From NCBI GenBank assembly GCA_006384855.1, contig VCJN01000598.1, positions 62,001 to 126,000 on the forward strand: a stretch of 64,000 nucleotides of DNA, read 5' to 3'. The notes beneath the pieces are model-generated. The model ran no database searches. It was not told the origin of the DNA and saw only the letters and a list, made by a program, of their open reading frames with translations. This DNA comes from Tetraselmis striata (Eukaryota; Chlorophyta; Chlorodendrophyceae; Chlorodendrales; Chlorodendraceae). Position 1 is the first letter of the stretch, and each line of letters opens with the position of its first letter. Of this stretch, positions 16,600 to 24,938 are shown in pieces. The translations under genes were made by a program, and so were the position numbers.

Positions 16600-16663
16600 T
16601 GTATTTTTGGAGTTGGTGCAGGTTGCCTTGCAGACAAGCAGCAGCTGAAGGTGGCTTAGAATC
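16600..16663 (-). repeat. Copy of the Copia leader outside its 3' LTR
   Basis: This ~64-bp segment matches, with three or so differences, the sequence just inside the 5' LTR (about 24,413-24,472), i.e. the element's own post-LTR leader. It sits beyond the 3' LTR and the match stops at about 16,600. It therefore looks like the start of a second element sharing this LTR in tandem, now truncated. No target-site duplication can be expected on this side. Confidence 0.7.
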
Positions 16664-17128
16664 TGTTACAGTTCTCAGGGCTCAACATAGCCCTTAGTTA
16701 GTACTATCAGCAGCTACACATGCTGGCTATGGGCTCAGCTGGGGATGCTAGCTGGTGCACTTTGGCAGTGCTGTATTCTAGTATATAAATAAAGCATGTT
16801 GAGCCGCCATTCTGGCGGCTCCTGTCTCTAAACTACTGACTGAGGTGGTGCCCAGAATTGCATGACCATCTGAGGTCATTCTAGAGTGGGCATGTTCGCC
16901 TCATGCCTGCTGATGGCTCTCTAGGAACTGGGCTCCTGGTGGAGCTCTCAGCTCCTTAATACATTATGCCATTTATGTACCATACCTAAGTACTACTGCC
17001 TAATATCGGCGCAACACATGCAGCTCTCAGTGGGCAGTGCAGTCTGCCTAACACTGCAGCCGGTGGCCTTACTTACAGTCAGATCAGTAGATCAGTAACA
17101 GACCAGTGTAATCTATTACTACTCAACA
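16664..17128 (-). repeat. Copia 3' LTR
   Basis: 465 bp, TGT...ACA ends. It contains TATATAAATAAAG near 16,780-16,800; the other LTR has a 4-bp shorter version. The inverted words GAGCCGCCATTCTGGCGGCTC near 16,803 form a small hairpin shared by both copies. Confidence 0.92.
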
Positions 17129-19064
17129 CCCCTCCTCACTGGTTGCTGCAGCTTGCATATCATTCAGGATCTCAGCCCTGAGTGCCTCAAATTGAAGTCG
17201 TGGCAGTGCCTTGGTAAACATGTCTGCAAGCATCTCATGAGTGGGCACATAGTGGATGTGCACGGCACCTGCTTGATGGGCGTCGCGCACAAAGTGAAAT
17301 CGGATGTCCAAATGCTTGGTGCGCGCTGATGTCACATCCGTGGTGGCGATGACTATGCACGCCTGGTTGTCCTCACCGACGGGAGTGGGTGCTGTCTGCT
17401 GGAAGCCCAAGTCTTCTAACATTTGGCGCAAGAACACTGCCTCTTGCACTGCCATGCACAGAGCGATGTACTCTGCCTCTATCTGCTGTGGACAAGGCCA
17501 CTAGTGCCTGTAATTTCGACAGAAAGCTGATTGCTCCTCCACAAAGGAAGAAAACGTAGCCGGTAGTAGACTTGCATTGACTGGGGTAGGTCGTCGGGAA
17601 GTTGGCGTCACTGTATCCATATAGTGCCAGCTTGTCGTCGCCACCAAAGGTGATTCCATGGCTGTGTGTCCCCTTGAGGTACCTCAGACAGTGTCGTGCG
17701 TCCTCCAGGTGTGCCTTGGTTGGGGTAGACATGAATCGGCACAGTCGGGTGACCGACTCTGTGATATCCGGCCGAGTGGCGACTGCGGCGTAGAGAAGAG
17801 CTCCCACAAGGCTGCGGTAGGTGCTGACCTCAGTCTCGGTGCACTGTTCGGACTCGCGGGGGTCGTTGGCCACACTGGGAACCTTGGCTGCACAGCACTG
17901 CTCCATTCCCAATCGAGCGAGCAGGTCATGGATGTACTTTGACTGATGAATGGTGATGGTGCGTGCTGCTCGGTCTCGCTCAACCTTGACTCCCAATAGC
18001 CATGAGCAGCTGCCGAGGTCCTTGATGTCAAATCGGGCTGCCATGGACTCCTTGAATGATGCGATCCAGGTTACAGAGTTGCTGGCGATCATGATGTCGT
18101 CAACGTAGATGGCGATGATTGCCAGGATTGCTGAGTCGCTGCTGCGATAGACATAAGCACCAGGATCTGTTCGTAGCTGTCTGCAGTTCATGGTGGTCAT
18201 GAAGTCCTGAAGAACACGGTGCCAATTGTGTGGCGCTTGCTTCAATCCATAGACGGCTTTGAGGAGGCGAAAGACGAGGGGGCTCCCATCAGGGCCATAT
18301 TCAACAAAGCCCTTTGGCTGCTCCATGTAGATTTTCTCATCCAGGCTGGCGTAGAGGAAGGCGCAGTCGACATCAGTTTGTTCCATGTGCAGGTCAAGGT
18401 GAGCAGCAATGGAGAAGATGACTCGGAGGGTGGTGAGCTTCACAGTCGGTGCGAAGGTTTCCGTGAAGTCAAGGCCTTGGACTTGGGTGAAGCCTTTGGC
18501 GCAGAGCCTGGCTTTCTCCTTTGACACAGTCCCATCTGCATTGTGTTTGGTTTTGTACACCCACTTGGATTTAACGACTCTGCGACCACCTCCAGGCTTG
18601 GGTACCAACTTCCACGTACCACGGCTAACCAATGACGTGAGTTCATGTCTCATGGACTCCATCCATTGTGGTGCCCTGGGGCCATTAATCGCCTCTTCAA
18701 ATGTGATAGGGTCACCAGGCGCCTCGCCTGCCACGAGTGCCCAGTCGGCTGGGTCAATGTTGCGGCTGAAGCACAGTAATGACAGCTCATCATGTACGGG
18801 GCACTCGCCAGTCATCACCGCTGATGCATAGGACTGAGTCTGCCACGAACCATCATCTGGGTTGTACACTCTGCGGTGTGTGTTGCGCACTCCGCGGGTG
18901 CCCTGTCGGGTACGCGTTGCTGCAGCTAGTGTTGGGGCGGTTGATGAAGACGGTGCGGTCGCAGGTACACTGCCGGATTGTAGTGGCTGATTGAGGACGA
19001 TCGGTGCGCAAATGACTGGTGTCGGGGGCAGTGGGGTGATAATCGGGGGCTGAGCTCGTGGCAT
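17123..19064 (-). pseudogene. Copia reverse transcriptase and RNase H (frameshifted)
   Basis: The frame from 19064 has the Copia RT signature: WKLVPKPGG, SKWVYKTK, ARLCAKGFTQVQGLDFTETFAP, TDVDCAFLYASLDEKIYMEQP, LLKAVYGLKQAPHNW and the catalytic IYVDDIMIA, then RNase H with TTGYVFFLCGGAISF. At about 17,493 the expected STAEAEY reads STAD, followed by an out-of-frame run. Four extra bases (GATA) account for it. The correct frame continues from 17455 as EAEYIALCMAVQEAVFLRQ through ADMFTKALPR to 17123. RT core residues are intact. Confidence 0.92.
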
Positions 19065-19352
19065 AGGAGGAGGACGAGTGATTTCTCTGCTCGGAGGCGG
19101 AAATGTTGGGTCGCGAGGCGCTGCAGGCTTTGAGGAACTGGGAGCCGGGGGTAAGGTGCTGTCAGGAGTATCACTGTGGTTGCTGTCGTCGCTGTCGCTG
19201 TCGCTGTCGCTGTCACTGTGGATACGGTTGCAGCTCCGGGTAGAGCCCCAGGCAAGAGGTAGCGGGTCGATGGGCTGCGGTGCTGCGCATGTGGGGCAGC
19301 GGGGGTTCGGGGCTTTTCCAGAGGAGGACGCCCCTCCTGAGGTGGACGCCCC

Positions 19353-20800
19353 TCATGAGGTGGACGCCCCTCCTGAGGCTGATGGTGGTCTCAACCCCTC
19401 CTGAGTGGCAGCAGGCCACTCATCTGGCACATCAGTCGCCACAGCGGGACCACGGGGCGTCTCATCGAAGGCGACGGACCGGCTGGCGATGACGGTGCGT
19501 GTGTCAGGCATGTAGACTAGCCACGCTGGGGAGTCGGGCGAGTAGCCAACGAAGATGCCCTTGCGGGCTGAGTGAGCGAGTTTGCGCCGATTTTCTCGGG
19601 GGGTGTGGACATAGGCTGGACATCCGAACACTCGCAGGTAGGACAGGTCGGGCACGGCGCCGGTGATTTTCCGCAGTGGGATATCCGCGACGCCTCGCCG
19701 CATGGTGCGGTTGTGGATATGGACGGCGACCATCATACCATACTCCCAGTACGAGTCCGCGAGAGCGGCATGGGTAAGCATGCAGCGCGTCCAGGTACTG
19801 AGAGTGCGCCACGAGCGTTCAGAGAGGCCATTATGGAACTGGCTGTACGGGGCTGCATATGTGCGACGCACTTGTAGCACGTCGCAGGCGGCAATGTATG
19901 ATGCGCTCCGGAATGCGGTGTCATTGTCAAGTCGCAGGGCTTGTACAGTGAATCCGAGGTTGACGACCATTGTGTTGAAGGCGCGGAGACAGGTAACTGC
20001 CGCAGAGCGAGAGCGCACAAAGTACAGGCATGCCATGGACGAGGCGTAGTCGAAGGCGCCACAGCAGTATGTATTGCCTTGCAAAGATGGAGTCCTGGTT
20101 TCCCAGAAGTCCCAGCCCACCAGTGAGAAGGGGACAGTGGGTTTGTCGTGGCATCGGCGCGGCATCGGTGCAATGGTCGACTTGACCAGTGCACATGCCT
20201 CACAGAACGGTAAGCTGATGTGTTGGAGGTGACCATAGCGGGGGACGTCGTGGTCTGCCAGGGCGGCATCCATTGCACGCTCATGGAGATGACCGAGACG
20301 AGCGTGCCACAGCATCTTGATATGTTCCTTCGACAAGCGCACGGCCAGCAGGCCTGTGGAGCTAGATGTGTCAACGGGCAGCGATGACTGAGCGGTAGTG
20401 ATTGCTGTGTTCAGCACAAAGAGCTGACCATTGATCTCAATGGGGACAGATACAACATCGGATAGCTGCATGGCATTGCGCTGAGCTGTCATCAGCACTT
20501 TGAAATCTGGATTGGCTATCTGAGCGGCTCGCGCACTGAACAGCCGAAGTACGCGTCCATTTGATTTCGATGCCAGGCCGGGGACGTGCATGCAGTTGCG
20601 GACCATGGAAGACATAGAGCGTCCACTCTCAGTCTGCATGGTAAGGTGGACTGTGCCCACACCCACTGTGTACGCGCCAAGCCCACTGATCCATCGTCGG
20701 GTTATAGTTCGGTAAGCACCGGCGCTGGCGTAGTCTGCGAAGCAAGCGGCCATATGGGACGTGGCGCCGGTGTCAAACACCCACTGGTCAGGAAAGGTGT
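19353..20800 (-). CDS. Copia protease and integrase
   Basis: Within the minus frame that starts in the methyltransferase end (21278). The aspartic protease active site reads VFDTGATSHM (Asp codon 20774). It is followed by a glycine-rich flap region, then the integrase HHCC finger (HARLGHLHERAM ... CEAC) and the DDE core: Asp of GWDFWE, Asp of RLDNDTAF, Glu of FHNGLSERSW, with the usual spacing. The GKE/GPY-like tail includes LRVFGCPAYVHTPRE and KGIFVGYSPDSPAWLVY, standard Copia features. It stops at 19353 in a region of short GAGGTGGACGCCCCTC repeats; the RT frame resumes downstream in the same register. Confidence 0.92.
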
Positions 20801-20849
20801 GGATGCTGGGCAAGGCTGTTTCACCCTTCCAGGATGTCACGGAGATAGC

Positions 20850-22125
20850 GAGAGCCAACCAGCGAGCAACGTTGGCATCAATACACGCTCCAAGTGCACG
20901 ACGTCGTAGGTCCTCAGATATGCCAGGGAGGTTGAGCGTGGACTGATCGAAGCCCATGCTTTCACAGCGGATGTCGCAGTCAGGTTCCGTCCATACTCCA
21001 TCGAGGAGCAGCATGCCGCGGCCCGGGGCTGGGCCGTGCATTCTATATGCCCAGGTTCCCTTGCGAGACATGAGTTTTGGAAGGACGCTGTCTTTCAGGT
21101 GCGGGGGAGCCGCCCATGCAAGCGAGAAGTTGCCACGGGTAAGCATGTCATCCACTGTCACTGGTGGTCTCACACATCGCTGATAGTATCGTCGCAGGTC
21201 AGCAAGGCTGTGAATGTTGGTCCAGAATAGGGTGTCACGTCGTGCAGTGGAGCCCAGTTCGTGCGCTCGTGCGAGCATGGGCTGCCCAAGGGCTGCGCGG
21301 ATCTGTGGTCATTGACCGAGCCGCGCCAGTGACATTTTCAACCTTATAGTTGAGACCACGCGGCTGTTGGCGCTGGATCCCATAAATGAGTATGGTCGTC
21401 GCATAGAATGCCCGTGCTCGGTCGTCTCGCAGGCCTAGACCGAGCCCCGCAGCAGAGAACGGTTGACACGGTGGGGAGCTGACCACCAGGTCGACAGGTG
21501 GCAGAGATTGGAAGTCCTCAGCCGAGAGTTGGTTCACATCTTGTGATGGGAGGCGATCAAACGCATTGTCCACGGCCGCACGTGGCAAGCTGTGAGACCA
21601 TTTGCTTTGCAGGGTATGTAGCTCGGACTGAGCTGCTGCTGCGATTGCACGGTCTCTCTCTACCAGTGTCACCATACTGAAACGATGCCCTAATGAGCAC
21701 AGCTCGCCAAGGATGGCGAAAGTTGCTCCGCTGCAGAGGCCAACGTAGTGAATAGGCCGTGACTTGCTGCAGGCTGTGCTATCGGGTTTCAGGTGTTGAA
21801 TCTCTGTGAGAGGGGCAATGCTGTCCTGGATGTCACGCTCTTGTTGTTGGCACGCAGCCCATACTGACAGTTGGTCTGTAGCGTCAGTGCGGGTGCACCA
21901 ATGATGCGCGCGGCGGCGAGCTCGGCGGCGTTGACGTTGTGTGCGGCGTCGCCAACGTCGCTTGGCATCGCGGTCAATCAGCCCATTGTCATGGTGACGA
22001 GCTTCATCGTGGTGTAATTCTGCGAGCGCCGTTAGCGCACGCCTCAGGTAAGCACCTCCAGGAGAATCATCATCGTAGTCCGGATCACTGGTGTCATTGG
22101 TGGAGTCAGGAGCGAGAGACGGCAT
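20850..22125 (-). pseudogene. C5 cytosine DNA methyltransferase domain captured in Copia (one frame change)
   Basis: Frame 22125-21235 (296 codons) holds the N-terminal half of a C5 methyltransferase: motif I VGLCSGATFAILG (residues 128-140), motif II-like LVERDRA, motif IV SSPPCQPFSAAG with the catalytic Cys at residue 220 (codon 21468-21466), and motif VI KVENV at 261-265. It is preceded by an Asp-rich then Arg-rich tail (RRRTQRQRRRARRRA), possibly DNA binding. The C-terminal half continues in the next frame (from ~21,290): STARRDTLFWTN (motif VIII, cf. the ..AHRARYFWGN segment of DNMT3-type enzymes), a target-recognition region, and RRRALGACIDANVARWLA (motif X). Protease follows at once, so the enzyme would be part of the polyprotein. 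All core motifs look intact apart from the frame change. The family transfers methyl from AdoMet to cytosine C5. Confidence 0.85.
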
Positions 22126-22185
22126 GTCTTTCTCGGTGTGCGCGGTGTGGGCAGTGCGCTCATGCTCATCCTTAGCAGAGTCATC

Positions 22186-23330
22186 TCACGTGTCAGAGTT
22201 GGATTCGAGGCGAGGCGTGTCTCCATCATTGCCTGTCTGGATAGTGTAGGTATCGCTGACATGCATCAGGTTGCCTAGGCCTGGAGTGCTGCGCAGCCGT
22301 CTGGGGTGCGTCGACAGTGAATACCGCGCCGGGCGCGGGATGTTCATGGCGGATGCCGAGCGCATCGAACCGCCCCTCGGCTGTCTCGCGAGCAGGTGAG
22401 ACCCATAGAAGTCGTAGTCCTGAGGTGTGCTCTGAAACGCTTCCATAGCCGCAACTGCAGCTGAGCTCTCCATCTGTTATGCGTGGGACTGGCGAGCCAT
22501 ATGGGTCTTGTCCGGTTGAGCAACCGTTTTCGGCAGGGGCTGGTGTCTGCCCCGCATGCGGCTGAAAGCTTGTCACATCTGGCGCTTGGTGCGACGGCCA
22601 CTCGGCGGTAGGGTTGTTAGATGCGGCGATGCAGCTGGTACACGCTTGAGGTGACTTGCGTACACGTACTGATGTAGCCATTTGAGCTCCTCGTCACGGC
22701 GTTCCGAGGAGCTGAGGATTGCTGGCTCCGAAACCAACTCCTTGATTTCCATGACAGGTGTTGCAGCCACTTCCTCCATCGCGGCTTGTGTGGCCCGCTC
22801 TTCCACTGCGAGGGCATGCGCTCGAGCGAGTGTCTCACGTTGCCGCACACGGAGAGGCTCTTCGTCATGGCCACCAAGGCCACGCCCTCCCGCCAATGCT
22901 TGGTACGGGTTGACTGTGGTCGTTGTCAGCGGAGTGGTTACCGCGCTTGTTGCGCCGATGCCGTGACGAGTCTTGGTTGGCACCCACTGCCACATGCCTG
23001 CATCCCCTCCATGCGCGCTGGGACTGCGCGCATCGGGCATGGGCGCCGGACCTTTGCCCTCGGCACACGCTGACAAGCGGCGTGCCACAGGAGGGCTTGA
23101 GCCCGCACAGATGGGCTCGGGTGTGGGTGAGCGGACTAGTCCAGAGATTATGAGCGGTCTGCTCTCGTCGACAAAGGTGAGAGTGCCAAACGGGCTATGC
23201 GGCAGGGACACTTGGGAGCTACCTGCGCACCCATTTGACACCGGAGCTGTCAACCGACCAGGCTTGCGGCGGCATTGGGGGCGGTGGGGTCGCGGCGGGT
23301 GGGAGACTCGCGTCATCTGCAAGGAAGCTA
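22186..23330 (-). pseudogene. Copia polyprotein spacer between gag and methyltransferase
   Basis: Minus-strand open frames, mainly in the register of the downstream methyltransferase, encode a Pro/Ser/Thr/Ala-rich, low-complexity region with short conserved-looking blocks (FGTLTFVDESRPLIISG, LKWLHQYVYASHLKRVP). It is interrupted near 22,573 and by a TGA at 22188-22186, after which the same frame continues into an acidic stretch (DSAKDEHERT) and the methyltransferase. No domain is recognised. A change of CGA to TGA would explain the last stop. Confidence 0.5.
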
Positions 23331-23332
23331 AA

Positions 23333-24169
23333 TTACAATGCGCCAAAGTCGTGAGTAGCTGCGGTAGCTGTTGGAACAGCGTCCACGGCAACATGGGTCT
23401 TGGCGCGACATTCTTATTCACGGTGCCCCGGACGCCCGCAGGTCCAACACTTGCCAGTGAACGGACGAGAGGTGCGGGGGCCACTAGGACCGGTGTGGCG
23501 GCCCCGGAGTCTAGTGAGTTCCTGCGACTGAGCTTGGATCTGAGTTTGCATCTGTGCCATCTGCGCCATCAGGGCGGCAATGTTACCTGATGGAGCGGTC
23601 GGCGGTGATGAAACGGCTGCCAGTGGGGGTGCGGATGTCCGACCAGACATTGCGGTGAAGGCTCCAGTCGGGTCCGTGCTGGGACTTGGGAGTGATTGGA
23701 AGAGCGCTGCTTTGTAGCGAGCAAAAGTGGTGAGTGAGGTGACCATTCGCAGTGCAACGCGGTACATCTCCATCTCGGGATTCATGCCATGTTTGGAGAG
23801 AGTCAACATTTCACGATCTGTGATGTGACCACCTGCATCCACGAGCGCACTGCGGCATTGCTCCATACGGCGAGCGTAGTCACGCACCGACTCGGTTGAG
23901 CGCTGCTTCTCATCCAGGTCACGACGGCGCTCGAGGGCTTCACCTTCATGACTCGGGATGAACTCGAGACGCAGAGCTTCCAAACAGTGGTAAGCTTGCC
24001 GACCATTGGGCCCGGCATCCTCACGGGCTGTCAGAATCGCATTGACTGCGATTGGGTGGTTGTCAAGCAGTGACAAGAGCAACTGGGAGACCTGCTGGTT
24101 GTGATACGCGCTGCAGGTGTCATCGGCATCACTGGGCTCAAAGATGGTGCGATGGCATCCGGGGCACAT
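23333..24169 (-). pseudogene. Copia gag with zinc knuckle, interrupted by stops
   Basis: The frame from ATG 24169 encodes ~251 residues of a helical Gag core (AYHNQQVSQLLLSLLD, then RRDLDEKQRSTESVRDYARR, the usual ..S+..y...f segment) and a Gln/Met-rich coiled stretch (MAQMAQMQTQIQAQSQ). It ends in a CCHC knuckle, CWTCGRPGH. A TAA falls exactly between the His and the last Cys (H-R-E-stop-E-C). Reading through restores the spacing CX2CX4HX4C, so this is a nonsense mutation, not the natural end. A second TAA follows 26 codons later. Another frame upstream (24446-24170) has helical composition and may be the displaced Gag N-terminus. Confidence 0.75.
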
Positions 24170-24472
24170 TCTCGATGGATTGCTTGAATTGCACGAGGAA
24201 CATGCGGAATGCTGCGATAGATATCGTGACAGTCTGAAACTTGGAGGTATGTGAACTGCTTGGGCCTGAGTTCAGCGTCACGGCGTAGATGGCGGTCATC
24301 TGCCGCAGCATGGGCAGCAGCTGCAGCGCGAGCTGCAGTTGTTGCCGATGAGCCTCTGTAGCAGCAAGAGCGGTTGCAACATCACTAGGCGGGGCTTGGA
24401 GTAAGCCATAACCTTTTGGAGTTGGTGCAGGTTGCCTTGCAGACAAGCAACAACTGAAGGTGGCTTAGAATC

Positions 24473-24933
24473 TGTTACAGTTCTCAGGGCTCAACATAGC
24501 CCTTAGTTAGTACTATCAGCAACTACACATGCTGGCTATGGGCTCAGCTAGGGATGCTAGCTGGTGCACCTTGGCAGTGCTGTATTCTAGTATATAAAGC
24601 ATGTTGAGCCGCCATTCTGGCGGCTCCTGTCTCTAAACTACTGACTGAGGTGGTGCCCACAGTTGCATGACCATCTGAGGTCCTTCTAGAGTGGGCATGT
24701 TCGCCTCATGCTTGCTGATGGCTCTCTAGGAACTGGGCTCCTGGTGGAGCTCTCAGCTCCTTAATACATTATGCCATTTATGTACCATGCCTAAGTACTA
24801 CTGCCTAATATCGGCGCAACACATGCAGCTCTTAGTGGGCAGTGCAGTCTGCCTAACCTTGCAGCCGGTGGCCTTACTTACAGTCAGATCAGTAGATCAG
24901 TAACAGACCAGTGTAATCTATTACTACTCCACA
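24473..24933 (-). repeat. Copia 5' LTR
   Basis: 461 bp, the partner of 16664-17128 in the same orientation. The element's leader follows it at lower coordinates. A copy of an unrelated dispersed repeat abuts its outer edge. Confidence 0.92.
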
Positions 24934-24938
24934 TGTAT

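Follow-up and report, generated by a model that had tools for sequence, protein, structure and literature searches.

The stretch of DNA analysed here (the window; 64,000 nucleotides of Tetraselmis striata contig VCJN01000598.1, our contig C468, with window position equal to C468 position minus 62000) contains a Copia long terminal repeat (LTR) retrotransposon at 16605-24933 on the minus strand, which carries a C5 DNA methyltransferase (DNMT) domain between Gag and protease. The explanation that we consider probable as a whole is that this element is a copy of family B, one of at least five DNMT-Copia families in this alga, that its enzyme belongs to a DNMT lineage shared among retroelements and that the enzyme would methylate the complementary DNA (cDNA) of the element itself. 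The window copy has the following features.

24934..24938, minus strand: target-site duplication ATACA, 5' side
24414..24933, minus strand: 5' LTR, TGTGG...CAAAA, 520 bases
23414..24271, minus strand: Gag reading frame with terminal CCHC-like knuckle CWTCGRPGHRE (by eye), frame shifted relative to the intact relative L019
21235..22185, minus strand: open frame with spacer and N-terminal DNMT part (motifs I, IV, VI; PF00145, 3.3e-7)
20844..21810, minus strand: C5 DNA methyltransferase domain, DNMT3-like by profile, frameshift near 21310 (two matches, C468:82844-83317 and 83193-83810)
20568..20783, minus strand: protease region, FDTGATSHM, Pol_BBD slightly below cut-off (residues 176-247 of the frame 19353-21308)
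19842..20132, minus strand: integrase core, rve slightly below cut-off (residues 393-489 of the frame 19353-21308)
19458..19661, minus strand: SH3-like integrase C-terminal domain (residues 550-617 of the frame 19353-21308)
17871..18617, minus strand: reverse transcriptase RVT_2 (residues 246-494 of the frame 17373-19352)
17123..17500, minus strand: Pol end, RNase H region by position, in a different frame (alignment to the end of the L019 frame; without a Pfam match of its own)
16605..17128, minus strand: 3' LTR, 524 bases
16600..16604, minus strand: target-site duplication ATACA, 3' side

An earlier note on this DNA had described the element as bracketed by matching LTRs, and this holds: the pair is 96.6% identical over 524 columns (14 mismatches, 4 gaps), and the 5-bp ATACA duplication matches on both sides with no shift. 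An LTR pair starting with TG, a 5-bp target-site duplication, an integrase upstream of the reverse transcriptase in one polyprotein and a reverse transcriptase of the RVT_2 type (Pfam) place the element in Ty1/Copia. Pfam domains above cut-off in the window follow the Copia order (DNA_methylase, 3.3e-7; gag_pre-integrs; SH3_retrovirus; RVT_2, 1.3e-58), with Pol_BBD (23.3 of 27 bits) and rve (31.6 of 32.6 bits) just under it. The window Gag frame has no Pfam match; zf-CCHC is over cut-off in the family-A locus L009 and reaches 18.1-19.6 of 20.8 bits in the family-B locus L019.

The DNMT domain of the window shows motifs I (LCSGATF), IV (SPPCQPFS), VI (ENV), VIII (STARRDTLFWTN) and X, under the motif numbers that we take to belong to these blocks. 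The earlier note had listed the same five, and all are present, but they do not lie in one frame, with a shift near 21310 between VI and VIII; likewise, the stretch 20850..22125 that it had assigned to the enzyme does hold the domain, but the domain proper spans 20844-21810 and about 300 bases of spacer had been added. Alignment to the intact L019 puts frame splits near 24200, 23210, 21310 and 17480, so that gag, DNMT and the Pol end are broken, and the window copy is dead and unable to make the DNMT enzyme. It is 96% identical at the DNA level to L019 and L020 internally and 93-94% in the LTRs, and it is an old, broken copy of family B. Short tandem repeats with 6- and 18-base units lie in its integrase-reverse transcriptase linker (19188-19219 and 19317-19378), and the L019 linker holds more of the 18-base units (by eye).

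A search of the genome (224 Mb, 2903 contigs) with the family-A DNMT gave at least 134 matching rows, of which 58 lie in frames that stay open for 1000 amino acids or more and 20 in frames of 2000 or more; these counts are lower bounds, as the best candidates were scored, and among the 58 long-frame rows C1713 is counted twice and four have internal stops in the match. Judged by sequence, the DNMT-Copia families of T. striata number at least five (A to E), and their full-length rows are 85-100% (A), 49-52% (B, the window's own), 46-48% (C), 33-36% (D) and 31% (E) identical to A, in bands that are our own sorting. Among the loci read (A, L009-L014; B, L019 and L020; C, L021; D, L022; E, L016-L018), a copy of every family holds a single open reading frame (ORF) of 2130-2483 amino acids; one long frame is present in L009, L011-L014, L016-L019, L021 and L022, and two frames in L010 and L020. 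The order gag-DNMT-protease-integrase-reverse transcriptase-RNase H is common to copies of the five families (by Pfam in L009, L016, L019 and L022, by alignment to A and B in L021), and the polyprotein runs from a gag with a CCHC knuckle (by Pfam in A, marginal in B, by eye in C, D and E) through a spacer, DNMT, protease, integrase and reverse transcriptase to RNase H (by eye). Full-length copies sharing this order were what the earlier note had looked to for support.

The position of the domain is also nearly fixed at the level of the genome. In 50 of the 56 reverse transcriptase matches at least 58% identical to that of A (families A-C and near kin), a DNMT match lies 1.9-2.35 kb upstream on the same strand; the other six (C2171, C253, C870, C553, C2640 and C1156) have none within 6 kb, although C2171 has a DNMT farther upstream, at about 9 kb. 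Of the 14 DNMT-Copia loci tested, window included, 12 show an LTR pair, whole or cut (in L019, L020 and L021 one LTR is cut by the end of the fetched stretch); the repeat of L014 is part of a neighbouring element copy, and the L013 stretch has no LTR pair. Identity between the two LTRs of a pair is 99.4-100% in A, 99.8-100% in E and 98.5% in D, with no difference at all in some pairs. With shifts of up to 8 bases tolerated, a 5-bp target-site duplication is also found at L009, L011, L012, L016-L018 and L022 and a 6-bp match at L010, with L013, L014 and L019-L021 outside this test (LTR cut or absent).

Within families, the ratio of nonsynonymous to synonymous substitution (dN/dS) of the DNMT domain is 0.20-0.33 across the informative comparisons: 0.20-0.21 for A against A2 (dS about 0.18), 0.28-0.30 for A3, 0.29 for C, 0.30-0.33 for D at dS 0.04 and 0.32 for E at dS 0.02. 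Near-identical pairs give noisy values (0.56, 0.85 and 1.35), and comparisons between families give 0.25-0.32 with dS near or past saturation. Long-ORF copies occur in all five families and these values show purifying selection, so the DNMT is a conserved part of these Copia elements. The view of the earlier note that the methyltransferase is element cargo is thus borne out by the shared domain order, by selection and by its grouping with retroelement-borne enzymes (below). A host gene inserted just once, into a single Copia copy, which that note had set out as the refuting case, or a chance alignment has next to no probability and is already refuted by more than 100 match rows in five families at a near-fixed position.

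Related enzymes are found in other element classes. A protein profile search over 5.8 billion proteins (candidates of 0.55-1.75 times the query length, long host DNMT3s outside) gave 13 retro-type proteins at E 1.7e-34 or better, the rest of the best 120 of 167 standing at 5.8e-12 and weaker, with a further retro-type piece, P0035, at 1.2e-6. P0011 (ENA) is a Copia protein with DNMT followed by Pol_BBD, the DNMT-protease order of the Tetraselmis families. P0009 (ENA; 35 cluster members) is a Gypsy protein with Gypsy RNase H, DNMT, PHD finger and integrase in that order, and its DNMT is 37% identical to that of family A. In T. striata itself, a long interspersed nuclear element (LINE) at C2687:12680-23194 (L023, L015) has an intact 3505-amino-acid ORF with APE endonuclease (4.2e-7), RVT_1, PCIF1_WW, DNMT and RNase H domains; the LINE frame of L015 aligns with P0012 (DNMT and an RNase-H-like end) and with P0013 (a PCIF1-like end and DNMT), and P0035 has PCIF1_WW by Pfam and then a DNMT start. 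The PCIF1-like site of this LINE reads NPEY, where PCIF1 presumably has NPPF, and PF00145 matches scoring the same as the LINE on C653, C2172 and C596 may be LINE copies. EukProt proteins labelled jgi/Tetstr1, which stands for Tetraselmis striata and identifies the host, are 91-99% identical to family A over the matched parts, the controls P0001 and P0005 being 96% and 100% identical to genome loci (100% over 875 residues). The best matches of P0004 and 11 ENA-only proteins (P0009-P0018, P0035) among the fetched loci are 37-53% identical over at least 60 residues, which suggests that the ENA-only relatives come from other organisms.

In a 22-row tree under a mixture model, from which partial or near-identical rows were left out (P0001-P0003, P0005-P0008, P0015-P0018), all 13 retro rows form one clade (support 100/99), and the human DNMT3A pieces, the only DNMT3 reference in a tree with no DNMT1, DNMT5 or algal host DNMT3 rows known in it, join them against eight other C5 methyltransferases (99/95). 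In a 58-row tree, 15 retro rows form one clade (97/97) and make up a 94/96 side with P0019 and the DNMT3A pieces. The DNMTs of Copia, LINE and Gypsy elements are thus recovered as one clade, as the earlier note had hoped of a phylogeny, and the enzymes of Tetraselmis, inside element ORFs, present in many copies and grouping with others of the kind, are retroelement-borne DNMTs. A constraint that grouped the T. striata Copia and LINE DNMTs to the exclusion of the other rows of the 22-row tree was rejected (p-AU 0.0001), which speaks against a private capture, with algal host DNMT3s outside the sampling.

These results bear on the suggestion of the earlier note that a chlorophyte Copia had captured the enzyme independently, which they do not favour. 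Under that explanation, the Copia enzyme was acquired from a host DNMT3 within the Tetraselmis or chlorophyte lineage, and those of LINE and Gypsy elements have separate origins in similar algal DNMT3 genes, now lost or unsampled. For dinoflagellates and Klebsormidium, capture from the host is the published view (PMC5890265), the trees lack algal host DNMT3s, the length limit of the protein search kept long ones out, and the Copia branch itself is weak (55/37, with P0004, in the 22-row tree, where LINE-type rows group at 86/57; 85/61, with P0004 inside, in the 58-row tree). Nevertheless, the single retro clade, the Copia protein P0011 with the same DNMT-protease order and PMC9998398, which reports no DNMT3 in green-algal MMETSP transcriptomes, all stand against it, as does a human DNMT3A piece that matched nothing in the T. 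striata genome, a search without a positive control. We find separate captures somewhat unlikely and infer instead that a DNMT lineage would have been acquired once or a few times by retroelements and since carried with Copia, LINE and Gypsy, the number and direction of transfers being part of that inference.

Other possible sources of the enzyme were looked at and rejected. None of the other C5 methyltransferases examined in the genome is DNMT3-like by eye: L053 is DNMT2-like and L049 and L050 are Dcm-like, all with introns, L051 is bacterial-looking, L001, L008, L052 and L054 are of a repeated bacterial type, and L007 and the short piece L055 complete the set. A viral source was sought in an IMG/VR scan with the DNMT profile, and the 2 matches that came up were both weak and short (32% and 43%). 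The bacterial-type methyltransferase is repeated at L001-L006, L008, L052 and L054 (a 325-amino-acid frame in L001-L006) and is accompanied in L001 by further ORFs and a tcggcacggcgcgtcc repeat; these loci are perhaps Polinton-like or viral integrations.

The Copia domain has motifs I, IV (PC), VI (ENV), VIII and X in order, as in C5 DNA methyltransferases (PF00145), and DNMT3 is closest both by profile and by solved fold, the fold comparison having been made on P0011, which is not a Tetraselmis protein and for which DNMT3 leads M.HhaI and DNMT1 by about 3 Z units. The enzyme is on these grounds classed as DNMT3-like. Compared with the catalytic domain of animal DNMT3A and DNMT3B, motif I is weakened in the Copia versions, and no ADD or PWWP is called by Pfam in the elements. 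The position in Gag-Pol, the conservation and the selection, as read from the sequences, are the observed basis of a mechanism that we put forward tentatively, at somewhat less than even chances: the DNMT would be packaged with reverse transcriptase in the virus-like particle, the protease would release it from the Gag-Pol polyprotein, and it would methylate CpG on the double-stranded cDNA, either before integration or at that step. New copies would thus be methylated when they enter the genome and would not be handled as foreign unmodified DNA. PMC5890265 reports that SymbioDIRS-Dnmt3 domains methylate CpG in yeast and proposes cDNA methylation.

Several observations weigh against this reading. 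The sequence profile search scores M.HaeIII almost as high as DNMT3A (6.6e-10), and motif I is loose in families A-C (CAGATFG, CSGATFA, CAGALHS) and poor in E (PCHGPSAS) and D (CCGGTLS, with motif IV PCCEP), so that some families may bind S-adenosylmethionine (SAM) weakly. The KnitGypsy and SymbioLINE domains were inactive in yeast in a test that the authors of PMC5890265 call inconclusive. Among 14 family-B sequences compared with L019, C-to-T decay affects 2.24% of CG, 2.35% of CHG and 1.23% of CHH sites, beside 1.21% for A/T transitions. The CG rate exceeds that of CHH only about 1.8-fold and is equalled by that of CHG, a weak footprint that does not prove methylation. Finally, a very abundant Copia family, N, lacks the enzyme: 94 of the 150 scored reverse transcriptase matches are 50-51% identical to that of A and were taken as N, and no DNMT was called by Pfam in the 1561-amino-acid ORF of the one copy read, L024. 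The DNMT is therefore not needed for element success. L024 shares Gag, protease, integrase and reverse transcriptase with A-C, to which it is closest by Pol, and its protease motif lies at residue 452 as against 925-1251 in the DNMT-bearing families. In the Pol tree, given a midpoint root because IMG/VR and PDB yielded no Copia outgroup, N sits with A-C, apart from D and E (100/99), and the DNMT was therefore either lost in N or gained twice. Several N matches each are found on C805, C776, C1776, C440, C1137, C1230, C2881 and C411, possibly as centromeric or nested arrays.

The altered motif I also raises the alternative that the domain has lost its catalytic function and now acts in the particle by binding DNA or RNA or as a structural component. 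In families D and E (L016-L018, L022), where the SAM-binding motif I is strongly altered and the motif IV Cys is kept, the DNMTs may indeed be inactive. For the elements at large this is unlikely, given that 7 of 7 aligned rows (from the five Copia families, the LINE and the Gypsy element) keep the motif IV Cys, the motif VI ENV and the motif VIII Arg and that informative within-family pairs are under the constraint described above.

CpG content adds to the picture of the LTRs. The observed/expected ratio is 0.28-0.32 in A LTRs and 0.19-0.20 in B LTRs (young and old copies, those of the window included), 0.47 in part of a C LTR and 0.85-0.92 (median) in coding parts of A and B. With such CpG-poor LTRs, the promoter of A and B elements would be spared CpG methylation, but this is no rule, because D and E LTRs are not depleted (0.83-0.86). 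The enzyme might instead restrain the element or help the host, by self-silencing or antiviral methylation, with the element gaining through tolerance, as proposed in PMC5890265 and PMC6338049, and a DNA virus is described as infecting T. striata (PMC4517135). We hold this to be quite improbable, since recent copies with identical LTRs show that the families are still spreading and nothing in our analysis ties the enzyme to viruses.

Hosts classically use cytosine methylation against transposons. With a DNMT conserved in several Copia families that have been successful, and a relative of it in a LINE whose ORF includes a PCIF1-like methyltransferase domain too, this silencing tool may be portable equipment of the elements themselves. 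A broader proposal, which we regard as doubtful, is that one DNMT3-like lineage is a portable retroelement module across Copia, LINE, Gypsy and hosts, in an alga whose genome has so far shown no DNMT3 gene of its own, and that the Tetraselmis elements supply the cell's only de novo DNMT3-type methylation as well as methylating their own cDNA. A single culturable alga makes it testable whether elements methylate their own cDNA and why that pays, since its genome offers natural controls, with DNMT-bearing and DNMT-less families next to each other and copies whose LTRs are identical. The single clade across element classes, for its part, challenges the published picture of independent capture from each host.

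No report of a chlorophyte DNMT-Copia was found in the literature searched, with most subscription journals and bioRxiv beyond reach, and the chlorophyte DNMT-Copia, the PCIF1-DNMT LINE and the clade shared across element classes seem to be new. DNMT-bearing retrotransposons have been published in dinoflagellates (DIRS, LINE) and Klebsormidium nitens (Gypsy), according to PMC5890265; the earlier note was right about captures in dinoflagellates and a charophyte, and the published charophyte element is a Gypsy and not a Copia. PMC12344493 (2025) assigns the elements of streptophytes and dinoflagellates to LTR Copia and DIRS, at odds with the work it cites, PMC5890265 (2018), which calls the Klebsormidium element Gypsy. 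The window element, as a Copia, falls outside the Gypsy, DIRS and LINE classes of KnitGypsy-Dnmt3, SymbioDIRS-Dnmt3 and SymbioLINE-Dnmt. KnitGypsy-Dnmt3 of the charophyte K. nitens (de Mendoza et al. 2018, PMC5890265) resembles it as an LTR retrotransposon with an intronless, divergent DNMT3-type domain in its polyprotein under purifying selection, and differs from it in being Gypsy, the enzymes being compared by description only; P0009 may be the KnitGypsy element or a relative. The SymbioDIRS-Dnmt3 and SymbioLINE-Dnmt elements of Symbiodinium, described in the same paper, are likewise retrotransposons carrying DNMTs, those of DIRS methylating CpG de novo in yeast, and are of DIRS and LINE classes in dinoflagellates, again compared with Tetraselmis by description only. 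The SymbioLINE DNMTs lie mostly in an ORF upstream of the reverse transcriptase ORF, whereas the T. striata LINE holds everything in its one ORF.
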